Origin: an uncultured SAR86 cluster bacterium
GTDB taxonomy: Bacteria > Pseudomonadota > Gammaproteobacteria > Magnimaribacterales > D2472
Direction of reading: 5' to 3'
Assembly: GCA_902547295.1 (NCBI GenBank)
Contig: CACCNJ010000009.1
Span: 1-54,345 of the forward strand
DNA length: 54,345 bases
The notes under the pieces are model-generated. The model was not told the DNA's origin. It saw only the letters and a program-made list of their open reading frames with translations, and did no database searches. The first letter of the stretch is position 1, and each line of letters begins with the position of its first letter. Shown piece after piece: positions 1,768-33,826 of the stretch. Both the position numbers and the translations under genes were made by a program.

Positions 1768-4731
1768 ATGATTTTTAACTCTATCAAAAAAACAACTTTA
1801 ATATTATCAACATTTATACTCGTAGCATGTGGCGGGGGTGGCGATACAAGTATTATATCTCCTGGTGAATTAGGATCTTTAGATGATCCTACTGGTGGCG
1901 GTGGTTCAGGCGGCGCTGGCAGCAATGTTCGTACTGGAGAGTGTCCGGAATCTCCGTTTATAACAAATGGATCCCCAGTTGCTGGAAACACAGTTTGTGC
2001 AATTCAAGGACCTATTACGAGTGACCTTACTCTGACAGCTGACGTTATGTATAGAATGCTTGGAAAGGTTGATGTTGGTGTCGACATGGGTGGTGATGGA
2101 ACAAAATCAGGTGGTGTTTCAGCTACATTAACAATACCTGCAGATGCTGTGATCTTAGGAAAAGTTTCTCAGGATTATCTTGTTGTTAACAGGGGTTCAA
2201 AAATCATAGCTAATGGTACACAATCAAAACCAATTAGATTTACACACAATACTGCAATTGAAGGCACAGTTGGAGAATTAGAGAGAGGTCTATGGGGCGG
2301 CTTGGTTATTCTAGGTCAAGCACCAATCAATAAGTGTTCAAACGATGTAAGAGGGACTGCAGAGTGTGAAAGAGTTGTTGAGGGTTCAAACGCACTAATG
2401 GGCGGCGCTAACAAAAATGATAATTCAGGTAAATTAAATTTTGTGAGAGTCGAATACGCAGGATATGAGATTTTTCCAGGCAATGAATTAAATGGCATAA
2501 CTTTTGGTGGTGTTGGTGATGCTACTGAAGTAGATTTTGTTCAAGTTCATAACAACCAAGATGATTGTGTTGAGTTTTTTGGTGGCACTGTCAATGTTAA
2601 GCATCTAATTTGCACAAACGCTGGTGATGACAATCTCGATATCGATTGGGGATACCAAGGAAAAATGCAATTTGTAGTTGTTAAACAATCTTCAGATACA
2701 AGTGATCACGTAGTAGAGTCAGATAATACTAATTCAGACAGCACAGTTGGTTATCTTACAGAACCAAGATCACGTCCTATGGTTACAAATTTTACATTTT
2801 TAGCTCAAGGTGCTGATGAACCTCTAAAATATAAAGAGGGAGTTTCTGGTATTTACATCAATGGTATTGTAAAAAATAACGTATCTCAAAATCTTATTGA
2901 ATCTACTAATATTGAGACTATCCAAGATGGTGCCATAACACCAAAAATTCAGCATCACTCCGTCTTTATGGATGCTGCAGGTGATACATCACCTTTCAAG
3001 GCCGATACTGACTCAAGTGGAGTTACAGCTGCTCAATTAGAGGCTTCAATTAAAGAAAGAGCAACAGATTTAGTAATTGGAACAAATACTCTTGTTTCAG
3101 GATTCTTTTTAGGTGATAACGAGAGTGCAGTCACTTCTGCTTTTGATGTATCAAAAGTTCAGGGTATGTGTGCAGTTGGACCTCATGCTGCAGGAACACC
3201 TACAGATTTATGTCCAACTTATAGTTCAAAAGAGGAGAGATATATTGTTGACACTTGGTTTTCTGCCACTAACTATATCGGAGCATTTTCCCCTGGGTCT
3301 GATATAGAAAACAACTGGGCTTCTGGTTGGACTTTAGGATTATTCACAGATCCTGAATGTCCATCCGGAACGCTCGAATCAGAGGTGCTCCTTGGAAGAA
3401 AAGTATGTTCGTTGTCTGGAGTTCTAGAAACTGATTTAACTTTAGTTGCAGGAAATTATTATAAATTAGATGGCAAGGTTGCTGTCGGTATTGATATAGG
3501 ATCAGACGGAACAAAAACAGGAGGTGTCAGTGCAACATTAACAATTGAACCTGGTGTTACTGTTTTCGGAGAATCTGGAAACGATTATTTAGTTGTCACA
3601 AGAGGCTCTAAAATTAATGCAGTTGGAACTTCATCTGCACCAATAATAATGACTGGAAGACAAGATATTCTTGGAGAAGCAGATATTGTAAATACAAGAG
3701 GTTTATGGGGTGGTTTAGTTTTACTTGGAAGGTCACCAATTAACAAATGTTCATATTCAACAGCTGGAACTTCTACTACAGCTGGAACAAGAGTTAACCC
3801 TTGTGAAAAAGATGTTGAAGGATCTGTTGGAGATACTATGGGTGGTGAAATTCCAAATGATAGTAGCGGAACCTTAAAATATGTCAGAGTTCAATACGCA
3901 GGATATGAAGTTTTTCCTGGTAATGAACTTAATGGAATAACATTCGGTGGTGTTGGGAGTGGAACAGATGTTTCATATATACAAGTCCATAACAACGCTG
4001 ATGATTGTGTTGAATTTTTTGGTGGAACTGTCGATGTTAAGTACCTCGTTTGTACAGGTGCTGATGATGATAACTTAGATATTGACTGGGGTTATCAAGG
4101 TAGACTTCAATATGTAATTGTCCAACAATCCAATGATAAAGGCGACCATATTGTAGAGTCTGATAATACAAACGCTGATAAGGCAGTTGGTTATTTGACT
4201 GAACCAAGATCTAATGCAGTTGTCTCAAACTTTACTTTCATTTCAAAAGGATTTGATGATGTTTTCAAGCTTAAAGAAGGTGTCTCAGGCCAATATTTAA
4301 ATGGAGTTGCAATAGTAAATAGTGCTGTAACAGGCCGAACCACAAATTGCATTGAAACAACATTCTTAGAAACAGTTCAAGCAGGAGCTGTTACGCCAAC
4401 ATTCTCAATGAATTCAGTTGCAATGGATTGTCCTGGTTACATAAAAACAGATGCATCAGAGGGTGGGGCAACTGTTGCACAGGTAGATGCGATCGTTAAA
4501 GCAGGATCAAATAATCTTTATGGCGCTAATTCTGGAGGTGGTTCATACGTAAATACTCTTACTGGAGTCGTTAATGGAACCGCAGAGTCTGCGGCAACCG
4601 TAACCGCAATACCAGATGCATATAACACTGACAGCTGGTTTACAACACCAACATATATAGGGGCCGTTAGCAGCGCTACTGATACTTGGTATAAGAACTG
4701 GACTTTGTCTGGAACTATAGAAGTTCAATAA
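1768..4731 (+). CDS. Tandemly duplicated beta-helix-like outer-membrane lipoprotein
   Basis: A 987-residue secreted lipoprotein. The signal peptide ends in LVAC with Cys21 as the lipidation site, followed by GGGG and a Gly-rich linker (about residues 42-52). Two homologous halves follow, about 57-528 and 529-987. Each carries ITSDLTL/LETDLTL, GGVSATLTI, RGLWGG(L)V(I/L)LG, PINKCS, YAGYE(I/V)FPGNELNGITF, VQVHNN, DDCVEFFGGTV and DDNLDIDWGYQG. The repeated short strands and Asp clusters suggest a right-handed beta-helix, perhaps with bound metal. AAGGAG lies 6 bases before the ATG. It follows a Pho-box-like array and precedes a TBDR by 37 bp without a terminator, so it is probably co-transcribed and may be a surface partner capturing a phosphorus compound. 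Related proteins are sometimes mislabelled 'multidrug transporter'; nothing here supports transport. Function unproven. Confidence 0.8.
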   Translation: MIFNSIKKTTLILSTFILVACGGGGDTSIISPGELGSLDDPTGGGGSGGAGSNVRTGECPESPFITNGSPVAGNTVCAIQGPITSDLTLTADVMYRMLGKVDVGVDMGGDGTKSGGVSATLTIPADAVILGKVSQDYLVVNRGSKIIANGTQSKPIRFTHNTAIEGTVGELERGLWGGLVILGQAPINKCSNDVRGTAECERVVEGSNALMGGANKNDNSGKLNFVRVEYAGYEIFPGNELNGITFGGVGDATEVDFVQVHNNQDDCVEFFGGTVNVKHLICTNAGDDNLDIDWGYQGKMQFVVVKQSSDTSDHVVESDNTNSDSTVGYLTEPRSRPMVTNFTFLAQGADEPLKYKEGVSGIYINGIVKNNVSQNLIESTNIETIQDGAITPKIQHHSVFMDAAGDTSPFKADTDSSGVTAAQLEASIKERATDLVIGTNTLVSGFFLGDNESAVTSAFDVSKVQGMCAVGPHAAGTPTDLCPTYSSKEERYIVDTWFSATNYIGAFSPGSDIENNWASGWTLGLFTDPECPSGTLESEVLLGRKVCSLSGVLETDLTLVAGNYYKLDGKVAVGIDIGSDGTKTGGVSATLTIEPGVTVFGESGNDYLVVTRGSKINAVGTSSAPIIMTGRQDILGEADIVNTRGLWGGLVLLGRSPINKCSYSTAGTSTTAGTRVNPCEKDVEGSVGDTMGGEIPNDSSGTLKYVRVQYAGYEVFPGNELNGITFGGVGSGTDVSYIQVHNNADDCVEFFGGTVDVKYLVCTGADDDNLDIDWGYQGRLQYVIVQQSNDKGDHIVESDNTNADKAVGYLTEPRSNAVVSNFTFISKGFDDVFKLKEGVSGQYLNGVAIVNSAVTGRTTNCIETTFLETVQAGAVTPTFSMNSVAMDCPGYIKTDASEGGATVAQVDAIVKAGSNNLYGANSGGGSYVNTLTGVVNGTAESAATVTAIPDAYNTDSWFTTPTYIGAVSSATDTWYKNWTLSGTIEVQ
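1936..4728 (+). repeat. Protein-level tandem duplication within the lipoprotein gene
   Basis: Two units of about 470 and 459 codons (1936-3351 and 3352-4728) encode the same ordered motifs, including the GNELNGITFGGVG and DIDWGYQG blocks. The DNA of the two units has diverged considerably, so the duplication is old. Both units end with a matching YIGA-x-S segment followed by a Trp-rich tail (NWASGWTLG versus KNWTLSGT). Confidence 0.85.
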
Positions 4732-30584: not shown

Positions 30585-30616
30585 GCGTATATTCAGTATT
30601 AATTAATAAAAGAAAC

Positions 30617-30653
30617 AAAAAAAAGAGAAGAGCTACTTTCGTAACTCTTCTCT
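30617..30653 (-). terminator. Terminator of the torF-glnK-amtB operon
   Basis: Stem of 9 bp (30624-30632 with 30645-30653) extended by 3 more pairs after one mismatch, with a 4-base loop. On the minus strand it is followed by eight T, so it terminates amtB transcription 60 bases after the stop. On the plus strand the hairpin is followed by A residues, so it is a poor terminator for the acyltransferase. Confidence 0.8.
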
Positions 30654-30713
30654 AAAAAATTTAATCTTATGACTTAGTTATTGGGGGAGCACTATGACGT
30701 CATTACAATTAAA

Positions 30714-31976
30714 TTATTTAAACTCCGGATAAGCTTCTATACCTACCTCAGAGATATCGAGACCAGCTTCTTGTTCAGCATCTGATGCTCTAATTGGCAT
30801 TACCGTGTTGATAACATATATTGTTCCTAGACTTGCTAAATAAGTAAATGCAGCAATCATAACAACACCTGTAAGTTGCCCTATAAATGAAGCGCCACCT
30901 GTTAGTGCAACTACAAGAACACCATAAATACCAACTGTTCCGTGAGCTGATATTGCGCCCACAGGGTCATCCACGCCAGCTTTTTCAAGAAATACAATTG
31001 AAAAGTAAACTATAGCTCCACCAATAGCACCAACTATTACAGCAGTACCTCCAGCAGGACTTAGTGGGTCAGCTGTAATTGAGACTAAACCAGCAATAGC
31101 TCCATTTATTGCCATTGTTACATCCATTTTACCTGTCATGAACAAACTCATGAAAAGTGCAGCTAAAACTCCGCCAGCTGCAGCCATATTTGTGTTTAAG
31201 AACACTTGGCTAACTGCAGTAGCACTGCTTACTTCAGAAACTTTTAGCTCAGAACCACCATTGAATCCAAACCAACCTAACCATAAAATCCATGCACCAA
31301 GAGCGGCCATTGGAATATTTGATCCAGGCATTGGGTTTGGTGTTCCATCGTAGGCGTATTTACCATTCCTTGGTCCTAACACAGTTACAACTGCCATTGC
31401 GGCTGCTGCACCACAAAGGTGAACAGTTCCTGATCCAGCATAATCTGAATATGAAATACCTAATGATTCAAATCCACCGCCCCAGTTCCAAAATCCTTGA
31501 GTTGGATATATAAAACCAGTTAAAACAACAGCAAATAAAAAGAAAGGTAACATCTTCATTCTTCCAGCAACAGCTCCTGATACAATTGACATAGCAGTTG
31601 CAACAAATACTACTTGGAAAAAGAAGTCAGCTTGATGAGAATAATACCCAACAAAATCTCCGCCTTCTACTGAACCATCTGATCCATACATCATAGGATC
31701 AGCCTCTGTAGCCATTGATAATGACCATGAACTGCTAATGTTAGGTAGTAAACCTCCTAAATAGCTATCTCCAGAGTACATGAGTGCAAAACCACAGATC
31801 AAATACATAATACATGCGATTGAATATAGACCTAGGTTTTTCGTAACAATTTCAGATACATCCTTTTTTTGAACCATCCCTGCTTCAAGCATTGTAAAAC
31901 CAGCCGCCATCCACATAACAAGGGCGCCTGCCATTACTGCATAGAATGTATCTAAAGCAAATTTAATTTCTTCCAT
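30714..31976 (-). CDS. amtB: Ammonium transporter
   Basis: Trimeric inner-membrane ammonium channel, 420 residues with about 11 membrane segments. Signatures: MWMAAGFTMLEAGMVQKKD, DYAGSGTVHLCGAAAA (first pore His), AAGGVLAAL and GAISAHGTVGIYGVL (second pore His). It has an N-terminal AGFTMLEAG without the cleaved signal of E. coli AmtB. Starts 20 bases after glnK, with an AAAGGAGAG ribosome site, as last gene of a sigma-54-type operon. Blocked by GlnK under nitrogen sufficiency in known systems. Confidence 0.95.
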   Translation of the reverse strand: MEEIKFALDTFYAVMAGALVMWMAAGFTMLEAGMVQKKDVSEIVTKNLGLYSIACIMYLICGFALMYSGDSYLGGLLPNISSSWSLSMATEADPMMYGSDGSVEGGDFVGYYSHQADFFFQVVFVATAMSIVSGAVAGRMKMLPFFLFAVVLTGFIYPTQGFWNWGGGFESLGISYSDYAGSGTVHLCGAAAAMAVVTVLGPRNGKYAYDGTPNPMPGSNIPMAALGAWILWLGWFGFNGGSELKVSEVSSATAVSQVFLNTNMAAAGGVLAALFMSLFMTGKMDVTMAINGAIAGLVSITADPLSPAGGTAVIVGAIGGAIVYFSIVFLEKAGVDDPVGAISAHGTVGIYGVLVVALTGGASFIGQLTGVVMIAAFTYLASLGTIYVINTVMPIRASDAEQEAGLDISEVGIEAYPEFK

Positions 31977-31996
31977 TTTTTCTCTCCTTTAAATAT

Positions 31997-32335
31997 TTAA
32001 ATAGCATCAGAACCAGTTTCACCTGTTCTGATCCTTACAATTTCTTCAATGTTTGTCACAAATATTTTCCCATCTCCAATTTTTCCTGTTGAAGCTGATT
32101 TTGTGATAGTTTCTATTACAGATCCAACATTTTCATCATCGATAAGAATATCAAGTTTCATTTTAGGTAATGTATCAACAGAATATTCAGCACCACGGTA
32201 AAGCTCTGTATGACCTTTTTGTCTTCCATATCCTTTAACTTCAGATACGGTGAGACCGATTACACCAGATTCTACAAGAGATTCTCTTACCTCTTGCAGT
32301 TTGAAAGGCTTGATTATTGCGCTAACAAGCTTCAT
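31997..32335 (-). CDS. glnK: PII nitrogen regulatory protein
   Basis: 112-residue signal protein that binds ATP/ADP and 2-oxoglutarate and gates AmtB. Start [20 protein letters not shown]-loop with the uridylylation site Tyr51 in [10 protein letters not shown]-loop [13 protein letters not shown] and C-loop RIRTGETG are all present. Lies 5 bases after torF and 20 before amtB. Confidence 0.95.
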
Positions 32336-32340
32336 AGAAC

Positions 32341-32937
32341 TTATAAGCTTGCTGATACTGAGAAAACAAATGCATCTTCATCAGCACCGTATCCATCATC
32401 AGAAAAATCTGAGTATGTTAATGCACAATCATATGATCCACATGAAAACCCATAGGATATCCCAAAGTTATCACCGTAATCATCATATTGACCGAAAGAT
32501 ACACCAACAGGTCCAATACCATATGAAACTTCGGTATAGTCTGGAGCACCATCAACACCTGATGCATATGTAAGACCAAGGTCACCCATACTCAAACCAA
32601 CATAGATTTCTTCAAAATCTAAGTCAGCATCGTTTTCAGGATATCTGTATTCGATGTAACCAATATCTACACCAACACCACCAACTTCAAAACCATATCC
32701 AAAATATAGATCTAGCTCTGAACCAGCGCCTGGATCATAATTAAAGTTAACATTTGATCCCCATAATCCTGCATAGAAACCACCATCAGAAGCATAATCA
32801 AATCCACCTTGGACAGCAGGTCCATCGGATTGAGTCATTCCTCTCCAAATATAATCGCTTGCAAAGCTTACATTTGCACTAACTGATGCAAAAGTAGGCA
32901 ATGAAACCATTGTTAATAAAAGTAATAATTTTTTCAT
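32341..32937 (-). CDS. TorF-family putative porin
   Basis: 198-residue outer-membrane barrel candidate. Signal peptide [21 protein letters not shown], then the family hallmark [29 protein letters not shown], aromatic-alternating strands and a C-terminal FVFSVSASL. Very acidic (many Asp/Tyr). The family is repeatedly found ahead of glnK-amtB, suggesting it admits ammonium or another nitrogen solute across the outer membrane; this is an inference. Strong AAAGGAGAT ribosome site. First gene of the operon. Confidence 0.85.
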
Positions 32938-32975
32938 TCGATATCTCCTTTAAAATATATACTCATTAATATATA

Positions 32976-32992
32976 TGCAATTGATGTGCCAA
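32976..32992 (-). promoter_or_regulatory. Sigma-54 (RpoN) promoter of torF-glnK-amtB
   Basis: On the minus strand TTGGCAC (32992-32986) is followed by five bases and TTGCA (32980-32976). This matches the -24/-12 consensus YTGGCACG-N4-TTGCW at all key bases except the G after GGCAC, with exact spacing. Predicted start near 32965, giving a leader of about 28 bases that contains the AAAGGAG ribosome site. No clear NtrC enhancer palindrome is seen upstream. Confidence 0.85.
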
Positions 32993-33055
32993 TTATGTAA
33001 TTATTTTATTTATATAAAAAAAAGTTATAATTTTTACTTAATTAAAGGAGTAAAT

Positions 33056-33826
33056 ATGGATCTAAATAATAAAGTAGCATTAGTCACAGGTGGAGCTTCT
33101 GGATTAGGACAGGCTACTGTAGAAGCTTATGTGGCCAAAGGAGCAAAAGTAGTCATATTAGACATAAATGAAGATAAGGCTCTAGAGATAATAAACAATT
33201 TAGGTGAAGACAAAGTTATGTTTATATCAACTGATATTATGAAAGAGGATCCAGTAGTGGAGGCTATAAATAAAATTAAAGATAATTTTGGAGGACTACA
33301 TATTGCAGTCAATTGTGCTGGAACTGGATATCCAGGAAGAATCTTAGGTAAAGAAGCACCTCATCCATTAGATGCCTTCCAATTTATTGTTAATTTAAAC
33401 CTTGTTGGTACTTTTAACGTTATGAGAATAGCAGCTGAATTAATGGATAAAAATGAACCAGATCAAAAAGGTGAAAAGGGAGTTATTATCAATACAGCTT
33501 CTATAGCAGGTATTGAGGGTCAAATTGGTCAATCAGCATATAGTGCATCTAAAGCAGGTGTTATTGGATTGACTATTACTGCTGCTAGAGATCTAGCAAG
33601 ACATGCCATAAGAGTATGTACGATTGCTCCAGGAATTTTTGATACTCCACTTATGCAATTAGCACCAGATAAGGTAAGAGATCCTTTATTAGAATCTACT
33701 CAATTTCCTCATAGATTTGGGCAGCCAAATGAATTTGCAGATTTGGCAGTTCATATTGTAGAAAATACATACCTAAATGGTGAGACAATTAGGTTAGATT
33801 CTGGAATGAGAATGAAACCAAGATAA
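33056..33826 (+). CDS. Short-chain dehydrogenase (HSD10 / 3-hydroxyacyl-CoA dehydrogenase type 2-like)
   Basis: NAD(P)-dependent oxidoreductase, 256 residues from the ATG at 33056, which has AAAGGAG 5 bases upstream; a longer upstream frame lacks one. Rossmann TGGASGLG (11-18), NCAG, catalytic Ser in INTASIAG, and YSASK. The PHPLDAFQFIVNLNLVGTFNV and APGIFDTPL segments match the type-2 3-hydroxyacyl-CoA dehydrogenase subgroup, so a role in fatty-acid or branched-chain breakdown is likely. Convergent with a small membrane gene one base away. Confidence 0.85.
   Translation: MDLNNKVALVTGGASGLGQATVEAYVAKGAKVVILDINEDKALEIINNLGEDKVMFISTDIMKEDPVVEAINKIKDNFGGLHIAVNCAGTGYPGRILGKEAPHPLDAFQFIVNLNLVGTFNVMRIAAELMDKNEPDQKGEKGVIINTASIAGIEGQIGQSAYSASKAGVIGLTITAARDLARHAIRVCTIAPGIFDTPLMQLAPDKVRDPLLESTQFPHRFGQPNEFADLAVHIVENTYLNGETIRLDSGMRMKPR

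Follow-up and report, generated by a model that had tools for sequence, protein, structure and literature searches.

The site that we describe here is very probably a working sigma-54 promoter that switches on the torF-glnK-amtB operon of an uncultured SAR86 bacterium under nitrogen shortage, through the activator NtrC. This reading, made from sequence, is supported by an exact -24/-12 site, by the presence of rpoN and ntrBC in the same genome, by a co-directional operon that ends in a hairpin, and by conservation of the site across SAR86. Taken alone, the promoter is an ordinary example of a familiar type. What appears to be new is the picture that the genomes suggest around it: there is one activator, most promoter boxes lack a near enhancer, some operators stand without a box, and a sister genus has apparently swapped to riboswitches.

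On the minus strand of the window (the whole stretch of 54,345 nucleotides that was analyzed), the letters TTGGCAC (32992-32986), ATCAA (32985-32981) and TTGCA (32980-32976) follow one another and form a sigma-54 (RpoN) promoter, TTGGCAC-N5-TTGCA, at 32976..32992. The sequence, a motif scan and conservation all identify it, and GG at -24, GC at -12, the spacing and the near-consensus letters are all in place. Taking the C of TTGC as -12, the spacing predicts a transcription start at 32965 on the same strand and a leader of 28 bases (32965-32938) up to the torF ATG at 32937, with an AAGGAG ribosome-binding site recognized by eye at 32945..32950 (minus strand). The minus-strand reading therefore bears out the original prediction of an exact site followed by a 28-base leader. 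The same prediction held that no other such site was visible. This is correct for the window, where only the torF site matches TGGCACN5TTGCA with 0 mismatches and the runner-up matches carry 2; it is also the only such match in the whole genome assembly of 1,053,698 bases. Elsewhere in the genome, a second likely site, TTGGTATGTAAATTGCA, precedes a 36-aa ORF on contig C4. From composition alone, TTGGCAYN5TTGCA would be expected 0.009 times in a window and 0.17 times in a genome, and the 17 matches with at most 2 mismatches in the window, against 10.2 in shuffles, were given no weight. When 25 near-consensus sites of the bacterium's own genome were examined, 23 fell within ORFs of at least 80 codons on either strand, among them the torF site itself, which the frame of the divergent gene overlaps when it is read from an upstream start. 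The remaining two lie in a 71-aa ORF on the opposite strand (L010) and before the microprotein (L131). A looser sigma-54 pattern gave 255 matches, and the weaker own-genome sites were judged among the matches listed.

The genes behind the promoter, all on the minus strand and all identified as ORFs with profile matches, are torF (32341..32937), coding for a TorF family putative porin (TIGR02001), glnK (31997..32335), coding for a P-II protein with Tyr51, and amtB (30714..31976), coding for an ammonium transporter of the marine subtype TIGR03644. They are co-directional and lie 5 and 20 bases apart; an intrinsic-terminator-like hairpin was computed 3′ of amtB at 30624..30653 (minus strand). On its other side, the promoter region of 118 bp is bounded by the ORF of a divergent short-chain dehydrogenase gene (33056..33826, plus strand), whose likely -10 element, TATAAT at 33026..33031 on the plus strand, was recognized by eye in a block that recurs in most relatives. 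The top named relatives of torF come from SAR86 cluster genomes, the best being 97 percent identical.

The pattern TGGCA[CT]N5TTGC[AT] precedes torF in 64 of 67 SAR86 records (L051-L117). The exceptions are L114, where the sequence has an N gap, and L111 and L113, which carry glutamine riboswitches instead. The fixed letters of the motif are conserved by construction of the search pattern; in the columns that the pattern leaves free, 44 representatives below 80 percent identity have T before TGG in 44 cases, A before TTGCA in 43 and T following TTGCA in 43, in contrast to the flanks and most of the spacer, which are variable. Six non-SAR86 records (L122-L127) were excluded from these torF counts. 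Three distant torF records with 41 to 44 percent identity (L118, L119 and L121) have a similar box, and no glnK neighbor was found in them. Across the 34 genomes of the window's genus, TTGGCAYN5TTGCA occurs 94 times, 0 to 5 times per genome, and its reversed control 0 times; related genomes in these counts are non-independent events. In four records (L083, L084, L085 and L087), the gap between torF and glnK has grown to 58-90 bases and holds an additional sigma-54 box, 594 bases behind the torF start.

The hypothesis stands with regard to rpoN, which had to be present in the genome and was found there. The host is a SAR86 draft genome of 1.05 Mb that is 77 percent complete, and its rpoN, directly 3′ of an LptB-like ABC protein gene (named by reading), breaks off after 353 codons, where contig C8 ends. 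The truncated protein matches TIGR02395 with 224.7 bits, to be read against a full-length cut-off of 277.35, and retains the activator-interacting domain, the core-binding domain and part of the DNA-binding domain. In the family sample, 49 of 61 genomes have an rpoN match, and the C-terminal RpoN box is found in 29 of 30 rpoN loci. The check for ntrC likewise came out positive, as the genome carries glnII-ntrB-ntrC, with both regulators behind glnII and above their NCBIfam cut-offs: NtrC reaches 632.3 bits with TIGR01818 (cut-off 558.6) and NtrB 267.6 bits (cut-off 240). NtrC retains its DNA-binding domain (HTH_8, 51.1 bits, residues 424-462). The glutamine synthetase that heads ntrBC (L019:4479-5450) is of the short GlnII type, with 323 aa, and scores 353.9 bits against the GlnII model, below the cut-off of 500. 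Together with the conserved promoter, rpoN and ntrBC support the RpoN-dependent nitrogen control that was originally claimed. A single strong match to PF00158 (E below 1e-50) is seen in 27 of the 34 genomes that represent the genus; the other 7, which are 63 to 82 percent complete, lack one, and none of the 34 has two. Other PF00158 matches are weak and mostly pairs within frames of 700-odd codons. Since there is never more than one strong match per genome, NtrC is probably the only sigma-54 activator in the cells of the window's genus.

In the mechanism that we propose, the sigma-54 polymerase would wait at the torF site. Under nitrogen limitation, NtrB would phosphorylate NtrC, and the AAA+ domain of NtrC would open the polymerase complex, leading to more porin, GlnK and AmtB; upon the return of ammonium, GlnK would block AmtB. 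The DNA-binding domain of NtrC would be retained for the operators before glnII-ntrBC and some second amtB genes.

The enteric glnK-amtB operon is under sigma-54 and NtrC, and textbook NtrC promoters have near operators. The torF promoter departs from this. The SAR86 NtrC operator, as read before glnII of other genera, is TGCAC-N7-GTGCA, and we scanned for it in the 300 bases upstream of each box (for glnII, before the gene start) at a threshold of 9 or 10 of 10. A score of at least 9 was found at 20 of 29 glnII loci, against 0 to 0.6 percent in shuffles, and at 0 of 67 torF upstreams (64 from L051-L117, L119, L121 and the window). The same scan gave 0/17 for the 130-aa gene, 0/12 for the TonB receptor (12 of 13 loci), 0/4 for the 92-aa gene and 0/2 for the microprotein. 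For torF, no operator of at least 9 was present from -1500 to +700 of the gene start in the 67 records either. NtrC sites had been suggested in the region upstream to 33055, where neither the enteric consensus nor the SAR86 operator turned any up; an NtrC operator close upstream of the glnK-amtB promoter, the textbook trait, is thus missing at torF. Based on this lack of operators in both scans, our leading but tentative proposal is that NtrC acts at torF from solution or through weak sites. Activation free of enhancers would be affordable with a single activator in the cell.

It is less likely, although still worth considering, that NtrC specifically binds weak or unrecognized sites near torF. 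The torF upstreams were scored against one palindrome only, so that degenerate sites would escape, and GCAC-like half-sites were seen by eye upstream of two of the distant torF records (L119 and L121). However, the best operator scores upstream of torF average 6.60, near the 6.46 of shuffles.

We consider it rather unlikely that the NtrC enhancer for torF lies downstream and loops back from within amtB, where the operator scan found an NtrC-operator-like palindrome of 9 of 10 at 31407..31423 (minus strand), about 1.5 kb behind the promoter. Enhancers can act from distances of about 1.5 kb. A palindrome of 9 or 10 recurs near the same place (+1462 to +1526) in 17 of 67 records, but the other 50 stay below 9, in a count that ignores relatedness. 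The palindrome overlaps conserved residues, TVHL[CS]GA, whose codon choices are skewed relative to the rest of the frame: GTG (12/43 vs 7 percent), GGT (34/43 vs 49 percent) and GCA (27/43 vs 40 percent) are raised, whereas CAC is not favored (21/43 vs 56 percent). Given the recurrence and the skewed codons, the palindrome could be a downstream enhancer, or it could reflect coding constraint. That another promoter drives the operon, with the sigma-54 box being secondary or a relic, is very improbable, as the box is kept in 64 of 67 records while its flanks vary, and a sigma-70 scan of 30600-33100 found 3 sites, fewer than in shuffles and all on the other strand.

Elsewhere in SAR86, NtrC does seem to have near enhancers. 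Seventeen records carry a further box at 2.28 to 2.45 kb downstream of the torF start, and in 10 of these records a short-string test places an Amt-like start after the box; the window has no second amtB gene of this kind. Nine of these 17 boxes have an operator of 9 or 10 located 33 or 73-75 bases upstream (L052, L053, L065, L076, L078, L079, L081, L082 and L101; about 2.3 kb behind torF and partly before a second amtB), which suggests that SAR86 NtrC uses near enhancers at some sigma-54 promoters. The reading that glnII is the only sigma-54 promoter with an operator was rejected, because operators precede second amtB boxes and the palindrome inside amtB recurs. Of 11 glnII loci in the window's genus, 10 have retained the operator and 1 the sigma-54 core, and in the other genera, except the riboswitch genus, the core is found in 11 of 11 parsed loci. 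In the window's own genome, glnII is preceded by the operator TGCACAGAATTAATGCA and lacks a sigma-54 box (the best candidate matches 8 of 12); no sigma-70 promoter turned up on its strand in a simple scan. As glnII in this genus keeps its operator and has mostly lost its box, predicted operators and predicted sigma-54 promoters partly come apart.

The motif sites outline what would be a small NtrC regulon. Besides torF-glnK-amtB, it would contain a second amtB and the genes of a TonB receptor, a protein of about 130 aa and a 36-aa microprotein. Our census covers 42 sites in 40 stretches, picked among motif matches and mostly away from torF. Seventeen sites precede the ~130-aa protein, 13 a TonB-dependent receptor and 4 a protein of about 92 aa; the rest precede torF (2), a second amtB (2) of the classical type TIGR00836, the 36-aa microprotein (2), another ORF (1, L271) or no ORF (1, L250). 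These last two are exact motif sites without a recognized conserved gene behind them, and the ORF in L271 is of low complexity and rich in Ser/Thr. The ~130-aa protein (L241:1120-1506, homologs L275-L298) has homologs in 24 of 34 genomes, and none was found in the window's draft genome. Among the 23 loci parsed for it, 21 have a box, matching 12/12 in 17, 11 in 2 and 10 in 2, and 2 have none. Two members were scanned, and the sole Pfam match was to a winged-helix domain, in one member with an E of 0.11. One of two scanned members of the ~92-aa family matches PAN_1, barely above the cut-off. The microprotein, which is membrane-like, is present in 12 of 34 genomes, including the window's own (L131:1379-1489, on contig C4, with the box ending 11 bases before the ATG), where it follows a tRNA-like sequence recognized by eye. 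All 9 parsed microprotein loci have a box, and in 6 of them it lies 11 bases before the ATG, which would place the ATG at +2 of a near-leaderless transcript. The rows that were not parsed are L195 for glnII, L291 for the 130-aa gene and L305-L307 for the microprotein.

Two torF records with riboswitches, L111 and L113, are linked to a sister genus, g14 (genomes G086 and G091, respectively). At the place of the torF sigma-54 promoter, the RF01739 scan found three glutamine riboswitches in L111 (3683-3858) and two in L113 (3740-3875), the last of which is separated from the ATG of torF by 142 and 125 bases, respectively; a further torF record, L120, has three (3653-3827). All eight score 61.9 to 69.1 bits, where the gathering score is 35. 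Riboswitches also precede glnII in 7 of 7 g14 loci fetched, two in six loci and one in the other, with 67.9 to 71.4 bits. Neither the window nor L175 gave an RF01739 match; the glnII loci outside g14 that were scanned with Rfam are L175, L190, L194 and L019, the others having been checked by a short-string test. An rpoN match is found in 0 of 10 g14 genomes, compared with 49 of 51 in the other genera of the family sample. In the two g14 glnII loci that were read (L346 and L351), ntrB and ntrC are absent beside glnII, and the gap lies between glnII and a rhodanese-like gene. The neighbors known from the window's genome are kept on both sides of it: a UbiA-like gene, and genes that resemble those of a rhodanese, a phosphoglycerate mutase and MutY (as named by reading). 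It therefore appears that rpoN and the ntrBC pair next to glnII have disappeared from g14 and that riboswitches control glnII and torF there. The g14 genomes are 78 to 93 percent complete, yet it is hardly credible that incomplete drafts created a genus without rpoN, given the 0/10 against 49/51, the ntrBC missing between intact neighbors in both loci and the riboswitches at both operons. The replacement may have been a single event for the whole genus; in the glnII tree, 6 of 7 rows of the riboswitch genus group together and G091 stands apart, and the tree does not resolve the genus. The torF-amtB operon of L111 (4001-5863) has no glnK, and behind amtB, on the opposite strand, L111 and L113 carry an IMES-1 RNA (RF02034; L111:6190-6002 with 199.8 bits and L113:6523-6333 with 190.5 bits), which was not found in the window.

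Put together, these observations suggest an overall model that we offer with reserve. A single sigma-54 activator would work free of enhancers at most targets, near operators being confined to glnII and part of the second amtB genes, and a motif match would denote a regulon member, including the near-leaderless 36-aa microprotein; g14 would have deleted rpoN and ntrBC and rebuilt the control of both operons with tandem glutamine riboswitches.

Similar to the enteric glnK-amtB operon, the SAR86 operon has the same gene order, a -24/-12 promoter, NtrB and NtrC in the genome and a P-II protein with Tyr51. However, it starts with the torF porin, its AmtB is of the marine subtype, no NtrC operator was found near its promoter, and a GlnII-type synthetase heads the ntrBC operon. 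Another parallel is offered by FlgR of Helicobacter and CtcC of Chlamydia, which the available text of two papers presents as enhancer-independent activators without a DNA-binding domain (PMC3162934, PMC7175178). As with these, a SAR86 genome apparently has a single activator, and its sigma-54 promoters lack a recognized near enhancer, but its NtrC keeps the DNA-binding domain and finds operators at glnII and at some promoters of second amtB genes. As for the riboswitches, glnA RNAs, some of them in tandem, have been linked to genes for P-II proteins, glutamine synthetase and ammonium transporters in the portion available of PMC2864571, and a phage riboswitch features in that of PMC9004378. 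The g14 copies resemble the known RF01739 elements, with torF preceded by two or three aptamers and glnII by one or two, and differ in that they occupy the place of the relatives' sigma-54 promoter and belong to a genus where rpoN had no match. The charge of SAR86 Amt has been studied (PMC9277239), and amtB is core to the order (PMC11582366, which also reports the SAR86 isolate HIMB1674); in their available text, the former does not mention an operon, a promoter or sigma, and the latter mentions neither sigma nor regulation. Among the matches listed for the open-licence PubMed Central literature, no description of sigma-54, NtrC or riboswitch nitrogen control in SAR86 was found.

From a biological perspective, one activator and a sharp motif would make the SAR86 nitrogen regulon readable from genomes and checkable in metatranscriptomes. 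The combination of promoters without near enhancers and operators without promoters offers a test of whether a single activator makes enhancers dispensable. Finally, the riboswitch genus would be a natural experiment in which a streamlined genome drops an alternative sigma factor, and in which the same operons seem to be kept under nitrogen control through another sensor. If this is true, a whole circuit was swapped from protein to RNA sensing in this sister genus.
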